Of a stretch of 64,000 nucleotides of DNA, positions 57,895 to 61,202 are shown one piece after another. The notes beneath the pieces are model-generated. The model saw only the letters and a list, made by a program, of their open reading frames with translations. It did not search any database and was not told where the DNA came from. How positions within the stretch are numbered: position 1 is the first letter of the stretch; each line of letters starts with the position of its first letter. The translations under genes were made by a program, and so were the position numbers. This stretch comes from Roseivirga sp. E12 (GTDB lineage: Bacteria; Bacteroidota; Bacteroidia; Cytophagales; Cyclobacteriaceae). The stretch is from the NCBI RefSeq assembly GCF_017592825.1, contig NZ_JAGFMD010000001.1, positions 930,001 through 994,000 on the forward strand. Reading direction: 5' to 3'.

Positions 57895-59163
57895 ATGAAT
57901 ACCCAAAAAACTAGTCTCACTGTCCTATTATTGGTCCTTTTTGTATCGATTACTTTCGGACAAAAGCAATTGTTGTACCAAGATAAGGCCTATGAGTCTA
58001 CCATAAAGACAATCCAACTCTACCCAAATGATCCGTCAATAGAAGCTTCCTTATCACCCCCTATTAAAGACATTGACGATGACCGAAAGCTCTTGTTAGA
58101 GTTTGATGACTTACGTGAAGATGCAGACTACTACTTTGTCTACTTCATTCATTGCAATGCCGATTGGCAACCATCCGACCTTAGGGCACCCATGTATATG
58201 ACAGGATACAATGAGTTTGAAATAATGAATTTTGAATTCAGCTCACAGGCAAAGATCAACTATGTGCACTATAGCTTTGAGCTCCCAAAGTTTAAGGAAA
58301 CGGGGAATTATCTCGCTGTGGTCTACCGCGATAGAAAAAAGAAAGACATCATCTTATCTAAGCGATTCTCACTCTATAAAAATCAAGTGGCCGTTGGCGG
58401 AAATATCAGTCGATCGTCAGATGTGGCCAATCGATTGAAAAACCAAAGGGTTGAGGTTACATTAAATTATGCTGGTCTCAATGCAATGGACCCAAGTAAA
58501 GACTTCACTGTGGTGGTAAGGCAAAACCAGAGACCAGATGTAACCAAACTAGGCCTTGACCATACCTTCATAGATGATAATGCCAAGCTTATCCGTTACC
58601 AGAATTTAGGTGAGGAAAATGATTTTCCTGGCTGGAATGAATTTCGGTTTTTTGATATCAGTACAGTAAATGGGTCAGGGAGGAATGTTGCCCAAATCGG
58701 TTTCACAAACAATAGGCCGCGTGCTCAATTGATTCCCGACAGAGTGCGAGACCCGGCATATTTTCAAGTTCTTGACGTTAACGGACAGTATTACATCAGA
58801 GACCTAGAAACAGGTCGTGATGGCCGTCTTACAGCCGAATATGTAGATGTCAAATTCACGCTTGACTATCCCGAGACAAGCGAATCAATTTATTTGGTTG
58901 GGCAGTTTAATCAATGGATTAGAAATGAGAGTTCATTAATGCGCTATGATCCAGTCAACAAAAACTACTATTCCAATCAACTTCTGAAACAAGGCTGGTA
59001 TAACTACCTGTATACTGTAGATTCAAGCAACCCGCAGAGTGTGGAACAAAGCTTTTTTGAAACCGAAAACCTGTATGAGGTTTTAGTCTACTTCAAGCCC
59101 ATGGGTGGAAGGGGCGATCAACTGGTCGGATACAGCAGGATCAATTACAACTCAAGGCGTTAG
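57895..59163 (+). CDS. Type IX secretion plug-protein family member (DUF5103)
   Basis: 422 residues with signal peptide (MNTQKTSLTVLLLVLFVSIT, ending FGQ). The N-terminal domain carries YESTIKTIQLYPNDPSIEAS and FIHCNADWQPSDLRAPMYM, typical of the family formerly called DUF5103, a member of which was found plugging the SprA translocon of the type IX secretion system. The C-terminal third (YFQVLDVNGQYYIRDLETGR, YPETSESIYLVGQFNQW) resembles an Ig/CBM48-like fold. Expected location is the periplasm or outer-membrane periplasmic face. It begins 98 bp from the sigma gene in divergent orientation and its stop overlaps that of the Cas6-like gene. Confidence 0.88.
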   Translation: MNTQKTSLTVLLLVLFVSITFGQKQLLYQDKAYESTIKTIQLYPNDPSIEASLSPPIKDIDDDRKLLLEFDDLREDADYYFVYFIHCNADWQPSDLRAPMYMTGYNEFEIMNFEFSSQAKINYVHYSFELPKFKETGNYLAVVYRDRKKKDIILSKRFSLYKNQVAVGGNISRSSDVANRLKNQRVEVTLNYAGLNAMDPSKDFTVVVRQNQRPDVTKLGLDHTFIDDNAKLIRYQNLGEENDFPGWNEFRFFDISTVNGSGRNVAQIGFTNNRPRAQLIPDRVRDPAYFQVLDVNGQYYIRDLETGRDGRLTAEYVDVKFTLDYPETSESIYLVGQFNQWIRNESSLMRYDPVNKNYYSNQLLKQGWYNYLYTVDSSNPQSVEQSFFETENLYEVLVYFKPMGGRGDQLVGYSRINYNSRR

Positions 59164-59972
59164 ACTGTTACCAATTCCTTGCTAAAACTGTACTGCTCTG
59201 TTCTGTCAATTGGGTTTGCATTGGCAATATCCAACATGCCAAAGCCCTTGTAGGTGTAATTCCCTAAGCCACAGTTAAATAGAAACTCTTGTACTTCTTT
59301 CGCTGCATACAGTTTAAAGGGAAGTGTATAACCTCTCACTTCATATTTGACATCCATATCAAAGACTGAGTAAATACGCGCAAACTTCTTCTCTTTTTCC
59401 CTAAGTCGGTTGAGATAAGCAACATCAGGAACAATCTGGAACTTATTAAAACTAGCAAGTTGTGCCTCTGTATAGAGTCCTGTAGATTCCATGCGTTGCA
59501 TTGTAGAATCGTATAAGAGGTCAGAAAATTCGTCTGTCTCAGGTAAGATAAATCTCTTACCTTCTGTATCGTTGAATGCAGCCTTGGTCGGAACTACTGG
59601 TGAAATGCAGATAAACTTCATTTCATCTGTCAGGTCAATAGCCTTTTCTACCTCAGTATTCATCGGTGAAACCTCAAGGTTGCCCAGTTGGACATCATCG
59701 AACTCAAATACCTGCTCCAATAAGTAATCTAGAAATGCCTGATCAGCTGAGGAGATTACCAGTGTCACCAGGCTCGAATAGTAATGTAGCCCGTTTCTGG
59801 AAATCTTTGTCTGACCTTTAAGGCCTGAAAAATTGAAGTAAGGATAATGAATGTACTTTTCATTGCCCCCTTTTACCAATACACCTTTTAAAAACTGTGC
59901 TAAAATATGTTGGTGATGAAATGGAAGATATGCCCCCCTATTCTTCAGCTTAAAAATTATTCTAACTCTCAC
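59160..59972 (-). CDS. cas6: Solitary Cas6-like CRISPR RNA endoribonuclease
   Basis: 270 residues with GTG start (59972) preceded by AAGGAG at good spacing. It has the RAMP layout of two ferredoxin-like halves. N-terminal half: RVRIIFKLKNRGAYLPFHHQ (strand, then the LP-helix), HYPYFNFSGL (like the F-x-F-S-x-L of Cas6). C-terminal half ends with the Gly-rich loop FNCGLGNYTYKGFGMLDIA (GLG at 235-237, GFG at 243-245). In P. furiosus Cas6 catalysis uses Tyr31, His46 and Lys52; here His42 with Lys52, or His19/20/22, are candidates. No other cas gene or CRISPR array is in the window. Neighbours are ychF (same strand, 132 bp upstream) and the T9SS plug gene. Confidence 0.85.
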   Translation of the reverse strand: MRVRIIFKLKNRGAYLPFHHQHILAQFLKGVLVKGGNEKYIHYPYFNFSGLKGQTKISRNGLHYYSSLVTLVISSADQAFLDYLLEQVFEFDDVQLGNLEVSPMNTEVEKAIDLTDEMKFICISPVVPTKAAFNDTEGKRFILPETDEFSDLLYDSTMQRMESTGLYTEAQLASFNKFQIVPDVAYLNRLREKEKKFARIYSVFDMDVKYEVRGYTLPFKLYAAKEVQEFLFNCGLGNYTYKGFGMLDIANANPIDRTEQYSFSKELVTV

Positions 59973-60104
59973 GACACTCCTTTTTCAACTATACCTTCTA
60001 ATCCTCAAGCACATACATGTGTTCAAGTCATTGGCATAACTGAATGATATTAGAGATTGTTCAATTGCTAGAAAAAAAATAGAATAAATGTCAGTTGGAG
60101 ATCA

Positions 60105-61202
60105 CTAAACATTGAAACGGAAATGCATCACATCACCGTCTTTGACAATATACTCCTTACCCTCTACAGCCATTTTACCTGCCTCTTTAATAGCTACTTC
60201 TGTCTTATACTCTTCGTAGTCGGGTATTTTGATCACTTCAGCTTTGATAAAGCCTTTTTCAAAGTCAGTATGAATAACACCTGCTGCTTGTGGTGCCTTC
60301 CAGCCTTTCTTAATGGTCCAGGCCCTTACTTCGGTTACACCTGCTGTGAAATAAGTAATGAGGTCAAGCAAGGAATAGGAAGCCCTGATCAGTTTGTTTA
60401 AGCCAGACTCAGTAAGTCCATACTCCTCCAAGAACATTTGCTTCTCGTCCTCCTCTTCCAATTCGGCAATTTGAGATTCTATTGATGCCGAAATCATAAT
60501 AATCTCAGCTTCTTCATCTTTGATACCTTCCTTCAGTGCCTCGACATGATCATTACCTGTATGAATCGCAGACTCTTCTACATTCGCCACATAAACCACT
60601 GGCTTGATGGTAAGTAATGAAAGGTCTTTTAAAACTTCCAACTCATCCTCGTTCGCTTCAATGGCTCTTGCATTCGCTCCACCTTCTAGCGCAGCTTTGA
60701 ACTTCTCAAGTACAACGATCTGCTTTCTGGCATTGGCGTCACCAGACTTAGCAACCTTTTGATTTCTTTCAATTTTCTTGTTGATGGATTCCAGATCTTT
60801 GTATTGAAGCTCAGTGTCAATCACATCTTTATCAAAAACTGGATCAACACTACCAGCTACGTGAACTACATTGTCATCATTAAAGCATCGAATAACGTGG
60901 ATGATCGCATCCACCTCTCGGATATTTGCCAAGAACTTGTTACCAAGCCCCTCTCCTTTACTCGCTCCTTTTACCAAACCTGCGATATCCACAAATTCGA
61001 TCACAGTTGGGATAACCTTTTGAGGACTTACTAAGCTTTCCAGAACATTCAACCTCACATCGGGTACCGTAACAACTCCAACGTTAGGTTCAATAGTGCA
61101 AAATGGAAAATTAGCAGCCTCCGCTTTAGCGCTAGAAAGTGCATTGAATAGTGTAGATTTTCCAACATTAGGAAGTCCGACAATACCACATTGTAATCCC
61201 AT
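60105..61202 (-). CDS. ychF: Redox-regulated ATPase / GTPase YchF
   Basis: 365 residues. G1 loop GLPNVGKST at the N-terminus, G3 DIAGLVKGASKGEGLGNKF, then a helical hairpin domain and the C-terminal TGS/ubiquitin-like domain (TAGVTEVRAWTIKKGWKAPQ, GVIHTDFEKGFIKAEVI). YchF is an Obg-like universally conserved P-loop ATPase that binds ribosomes and takes part in stress response. The normal NKxD motif is replaced by NVEE, which explains ATP rather than GTP preference in the family. It could share a transcript with the downstream cas6. Confidence 0.96.
   Translation of the reverse strand: MGLQCGIVGLPNVGKSTLFNALSSAKAEAANFPFCTIEPNVGVVTVPDVRLNVLESLVSPQKVIPTVIEFVDIAGLVKGASKGEGLGNKFLANIREVDAIIHVIRCFNDDNVVHVAGSVDPVFDKDVIDTELQYKDLESINKKIERNQKVAKSGDANARKQIVVLEKFKAALEGGANARAIEANEDELEVLKDLSLLTIKPVVYVANVEESAIHTGNDHVEALKEGIKDEEAEIIMISASIESQIAELEEEDEKQMFLEEYGLTESGLNKLIRASYSLLDLITYFTAGVTEVRAWTIKKGWKAPQAAGVIHTDFEKGFIKAEVIKIPDYEEYKTEVAIKEAGKMAVEGKEYIVKDGDVMHFRFNV

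Follow-up and report, generated by a model that had tools for sequence, protein, structure and literature searches.

What is the role of a Cas6-like protein in Roseivirga sp. E12, a bacterium in whose genome CRISPR markers above cut-off are absent? In CRISPR systems, Cas6 is the enzyme that matures crRNA. The gene in question lies on the minus strand of the window (the whole stretch of 64,000 nucleotides that was analysed), where a sequence-only reading had placed it as a solitary Cas6-like endoribonuclease gene. As had been described there, it comes after ychF in the same orientation and shares bases with a gene for a T9SS plug protein. The gap to ychF measures 132 bp, and the plug gene is convergent, with an overlap of four bases. 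The features are listed below, with conservation counted over 99 orthologue loci representing 94 distinct genes.

57895 to 59163, plus strand: T9SS plug-protein gene (PF17116), convergent with the Cas6-like gene, 4-bp overlap at 59160-59163
59160 to 59972, minus strand: solitary Cas6-like gene of 270 codons for amino acids, beginning with GTG at 59972
59229 to 59270, minus strand: glycine-rich RAMP loop GLGNYTYKGFGMLD, codons 235-248; G235, G243, G245 and D248 in 99/99 loci, G237 in 98/99
59814 to 59831, minus strand: FSGLKG motif, codons 48-53; S49 and K52 in 99/99 loci
59910 to 59918, minus strand: HHQ motif, codons 19-21, where predicted helix alpha1 begins; H20 in 98/99 loci
59973 to 60104, no strand assigned: 132-bp intergenic stretch separating ychF from the Cas6-like gene
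60105 to 61202, minus strand: ychF, upstream of the Cas6-like gene in the same orientation and conserved as its neighbour

The position of a DUF3276 gene (PF11680; 61355-61699 in the window) upstream of ychF is also kept in many relatives. The good ribosome site noted earlier ahead of the Cas6-like gene (AAGGAG) is not seen ahead of the start codons in most relatives. The start codons are GTG in 62, TTG in 13 and ATG in 12 of 87 order-level loci, and ATG in all 12 loci outside the order.

Assignment of the protein to Cas6 is supported by profiles and by fold. The Pfam model Cas_Cas6_C matches the window protein at 1.6e-18 and 68.1 bits (cut-off 23), the NCBIfam model cas_cas6 scores 67.6 (cut-off 58.65), and the PADLOC Cas6b model matches at 7.6e-30. 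The closest solved sequences are Cas6-related proteins of Pyrococcus (3UFC at 1.1e-5, 3QJP and 3QJJ at about 9e-5). An AlphaFold model of the protein (mean pLDDT 67, pTM 0.67, with a weak C-terminal half) finds Cas6 structures as its top matches in the PDB by Foldseek (E from 6e-12) and as its best ones by VIA-align (the top five at Z 17.6 to 15.5). The Cas6 architecture proposed from the sequence is hence confirmed by profiles above curated cut-offs and by a model that, weak C-terminal half included, matches the Cas6 fold. The glycine-rich C-terminal loop of Cas6 is present, with G235, G243 and G245 invariant in the orthologue loci. The usual catalytic Tyr/His is absent from this Cas6/RAMP fold, as in non-catalytic Cas6 of the PfuCas6nc type.

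Orthologues were found in 128 of 148 sampled Cyclobacteriaceae genomes and in 75 of 84 genera; the Pfam Cas6 model yields the same tally for the family (128/148) and matches none of the 20 non-carriers. Named carriers include Roseivirga, Nitritalea, Pararhodonellum and Rhodocytophaga. At the level of Cytophagales, 150 of 291 genomes match, 144 of them at 150 bits or more and six weakly (best E 1e-6 to 1e-3). Matches in Bacteroidia amount to 28 of 295 genomes, including 12 outside the order at 113-173 bits (f93, f108, f125, f133), and those in Bacteroidota to 60 of 395 genomes, where 60 bits are exceeded in nine only, all from the own family. A Cas6 tree of 92 rows was computed from 53 representatives of the order, the 12 distant proteins and 27 other Cas6 homologues, the latter hand-picked among weak matches. 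All 65 solitary rows form one branch (support 100/100, length 1.4) apart from the 27 other Cas6 proteins; as the tree is unrooted, the direction of change, namely descent from a CRISPR Cas6, is assumed. Three Cas6 homologues of 219-245 aa (L100, L150, L151), which are devoid of LHxxG[YF], sit on a long branch of their own.

The family differs from other Cas6 proteins in its active face. The first domain of the control proteins mostly displays IYK, followed by FLHxxGY. The motif LHxxG[YF] occurs in 0/99 solitary proteins versus 18/20 controls and 3/7 further Cas6 rows; because it is also missing in 2/20 controls and 4/7 further rows, its absence alone proves neither a loss of catalysis nor a role outside CRISPR. 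Conversely, P[FL]HHQ is present in 90/99 and FSx[LIV]K[GA] in 98/99 solitary proteins versus 0/27 other Cas6 proteins for either motif. The position of the usual catalytic Tyr is taken by K29 in the window protein and by K in 65/99 loci. Besides H20, S49 and K52 (see the list above), conserved residues comprise H19 (92 of 99 loci), Q21 (96), Y186 (99), K195 and R199 (98 each). Two sites had been put forward as catalytic candidates. His42 is rejected, as it is not conserved (His in 6/99 loci). In the His19-22 region, by contrast, H20 and H19 are kept.

The AlphaFold model predicts a helix at residues 21-35, with H19 and H20 at the start of alpha1, which makes a rebuilt active site possible. According to PMC3727216, the active site of Cas6 lies between the glycine-rich loop and helix alpha1, and no catalytic residue is common to all Cas6 subfamilies. 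PMC3652601 describes a Cas6 that is active although it lacks the His, locates the His of Cas6e and Cas6f in alpha1 and regards a chaperone role as possible. An active site rebuilt from the conserved H20 and K52 is possible. As the usual catalytic-His segment is gone while HHQ and FSxLKG are near-invariant, we hypothesize two ways of acting on RNA: the solitary protein may protect or escort an RNA without cutting it, or it may cut the RNA with an active site rebuilt at helix alpha1. The odds between cutting and binding alone are about even. The earlier suggestion that the protein may have been recruited to cut an RNA of the cell is retained in part: the non-CRISPR role fits the data, whereas cutting is a mere possibility, and the usual catalytic Tyr/His segment is lacking family-wide.

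The nucleotide sequence around the start codon may carry additional information. About 22 nt ahead of the GTG, in an A/U-rich leader, are conserved in 24 related genomes. Synonymous conservation is raised in 25 genomes, with codon identities of 0.77 (codons 1-15), 0.65 (31-45) and 0.71 (46-60), as compared with 0.39-0.56 elsewhere; conservation of the leader and of codons 1-60 was seen in loci L004-L030. RNAalifold predicts a hairpin over codons 46-60, whose paired cells and covariation score exceed those of all but 3/500 shuffles. The hairpin has a single compensatory pair, and its pairs and pair types are no more than those of shuffles (375 and 500 of 500). Within the own genus, codons 1-15 alone stand out clearly (ratio 1.69; 1.30 for codons 1-30 of ychF), and head to head the start region differs from ychF by a modest gap (0.59 vs 0.48). 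Judged by this pattern of conservation, the leader and start region may be considered a possible autoregulatory site and hence a lead. In its most explicit form, the cellular role would be that of a core RNA-processing factor, shared by an entire bacterial lineage, which cuts or guards a chromosomal RNA via a rebuilt site of H19/H20 and K52, may regulate its own mRNA by means of this leader and start region, and is tied to translation by its long-lived association with ychF; we regard this combination as tentative and, taken as a whole, rather unlikely.

A Cas6 may also serve CRISPR loci from a distance. In the genome under study (35 contigs, 4,701,246 bases, completeness 99.9%), the solitary gene is the one and only Cas6 match. 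Models of Cas1, RAMP and Cas9 find no match in this genome, and Cas3-core matches are found below cut-off only (best 3.3e-10); such sub-cut-off matches occur in all 148 family genomes, as general helicases would give. An exact 20-mer scan displays no repeat array in the 64-kb window, where Rfam at gathering thresholds likewise finds nothing. The proposed search for further cas genes thus yielded none for Cas1, RAMP and Cas9 and none above cut-off for Cas3, and the processing of a distant array, which had been offered as one explanation, finds no support from these models in this genome.

For the family at large, four markers were considered in the 148 genomes: Cas1, RAMPs, and above-cut-off matches to Cas3 and to Cas9. 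Any of the four is present in 55/128 carriers vs 5/20 non-carriers (P = 0.15), and none of them in 73/128 carriers. The Class 1 markers among them, namely RAMPs and above-cut-off Cas3, are found in 33/128 carriers vs 0/20 non-carriers (Fisher P = 0.007), a comparison that ignores relatedness and is no clean test, since several non-carriers share genera. This association speaks against full independence from CRISPR. Among the 33 Class 1 carriers, further Pfam Cas6 matches are present in 22 and absent in 11, 7 of which are RAMP-positive. In 7/10 RAMP-positive genomes the solitary protein is the only Cas6 match, so a part-time role in CRISPR is possible there. The exact 20-mer scan found repeat arrays in 0/87 order-level solitary loci (stretches of 3.8 to 20.8 kb, some shorter) and in 12/20 control Cas6 loci (L088-L107).

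These figures bear on the idea of a trans-acting Cas6, a shared service gene whose product would process the pre-crRNA of CRISPR loci at other sites of the genome. The Class 1 association and the RAMP-positive genomes with a sole Cas6 match agree with it, as does a passage of PMC12669027 according to which most type III systems apparently use Cas6 in trans. On the other hand, no Class 1 marker is present in 95/128 carriers and no marker of any kind among the four in the 73 mentioned, two thirds of the Class 1 carriers (22/33) have further Pfam Cas6 matches, the 87 order-level stretches are free of arrays, and the own genome is without Cas1, RAMP and Cas9 matches. We consider the trans-acting Cas6 improbable. 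The occurrence of the family in genomes with or without CRISPR suggests that the protein probably handles an RNA of the cell itself.

The location of the gene is a further line of evidence. Taking a distance under 700 bp as directly upstream, ychF directly precedes the gene on the same strand in 77/99 loci. This includes 50/50 genomes of the family (L001-L030, L068-L087), 16/17 named loci (L031-L047), 7/20 loci from the order's other families (L048-L067) and 4/12 loci outside the order. Within the family, the plug gene usually converges on it from the opposite side. Since 13/20 loci of the order's other families are without the ychF link, a partner is not required. A partner gene was rejected as well: among 20 loci beyond the family (L047-L066), ychF is the sole neighbour to recur in more than four (the ychF cluster of seven in these loci includes one other GTPase, in L047). 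In 6/12 distant loci (L136-L140, L143), a gene of 631-767 aa lies after the solitary gene or overlaps it. The link to ychF may point towards translation.

Inheritance appears to be mainly vertical. Trees of ychF and cas6 for 70 taxa have 24/67 splits in common (mean 0.2 and maximum 2 in 200 label shuffles), well-supported cas6 splits recur in the ychF tree in 17/31 cases and do not in 14/31, and the distances of the two genes correlate with a Mantel r of 0.84 (shuffles at most 0.30). A search of 50,697 phage records gave no match to the solitary protein, and 72,556 plasmid records gave one, a 602-kb replicon of Bernardetia. The copy on this replicon (NZ_CP147018.1, 328852-329628) is 50% identical and annotated as CRISPR-associated endoribonuclease Cas6. 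A mobile-element gene was rejected on the grounds of these records and of the fixed position within the family. The same data weigh on the view that the protein is an antiviral factor which binds or cuts invader RNA alone, in the absence of CRISPR. Its kinship with a defence gene and the matches of PADLOC Cas6 models speak in favour of such a function, but the fixed family locus by ychF, the agreement with the ychF tree, a very low dN/dS (see below), and the absence of phage and near absence of plasmid records speak against it, and we deem it very improbable.

Selection on the gene was estimated from 10 non-overlapping pairs out of 452 prefiltered ones, with dS outside 0.05-1.5 dropped. The median dN/dS of the Cas6-like gene is 0.031 (range 0.012-0.061). 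The corresponding median for ychF is 0.022 on the 6/10 pairs where it was measurable, with ychF saturated in several, and the plug gene was measurable on one pair, so both genes are only rough yardsticks. In the 20/148 family genomes that are without the gene, ychF and the plug gene adjoin, with no more than 126 bp between them, in 8 of 16 such loci read, for which loss is the simplest interpretation; the gene is hence dispensable in some genomes. A functionless remnant of a lost CRISPR system would agree with these absences and with the lack of a CRISPR marker above cut-off in the own genome, but it is ruled out for practical purposes by the dN/dS of about 0.03 over 10 pairs and by invariant positions across 99 loci. 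Distribution, synteny, congruence with the ychF tree and purifying selection all lend strong support to the earlier description of a stable resident gene.

Taken together, we hypothesize that a Cas6 was exapted as a host RNA-binding and perhaps RNA-cutting core protein, usually located by ychF, inherited mainly vertically and acting outside CRISPR; we assign this reading a probability of roughly 78%. A Cas6 would have settled as a core gene of the chromosome in and around Cytophagales, and would still, as the kept RAMP fold and glycine-rich loop suggest, most likely bind a specific RNA made by the cell. The family is no stray gene, but a widely kept, probably CRISPR-independent one with a changed catalytic face, and appears to have the standing of a housekeeping gene in many environmental Bacteroidota. 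If this is true, a Cas RNase has been exapted into core RNA biology, and annotations of "Cas6" in these bacteria (e.g. on the Bernardetia replicon) need not signal CRISPR. Among the matches listed in a search of open-access literature, which mostly leaves subscription journals outside, none was recognised as an account of a solitary or domesticated Cas6 family in Bacteroidota. The relevant passages of PMC8730458, a review on the exaptation of CRISPR parts, do not feature a solo Cas6, and "solo" or "standalone" Cas6 in the passages of PMC8866350 denotes the ordinary crRNA-processing enzyme.

Compared with known systems, the solitary protein aligns with CRISPR Cas6 of the Pyrococcus furiosus type over the full length of the profiles (hhalign 99.9%, 23% identity), and fold and glycine-rich loop are common to both. 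The solitary family differs in that it is without the Tyr and the FLHxxGY segment, has conserved HHQ and FSxLKG, and is kept beside ychF; above-cut-off CRISPR markers are absent in the window genome and in 73/128 carriers. Among the nearest PDB relatives by both sequence and fold are PfuCas6nc (3UFC) and 3QJJ of P. horikoshii, which we take to be archaeal proteins from CRISPR-bearing species, whereas the solitary gene is widespread in a bacterial order and most sampled carriers are without a CRISPR marker. PMC3652601 describes 3UFC as the non-catalytic Cas6 of P. furiosus. The same source presents the Sulfolobus Cas6 Sso1437, like the solitary protein, as devoid of the usual catalytic His, with a chaperone-like role weighed by the authors; unlike what we propose here, that protein acts on CRISPR RNA and has another set of basic residues. 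Solo-Cas4, as characterised in passages of PMC5704561, is alike in being a Cas protein outside CRISPR loci that is inherited mainly vertically and often found in CRISPR-free genomes, but differs as a nuclease of the adaptation module, under selection near the genomic median, with a patchy distribution in bacteria and no RAMP.
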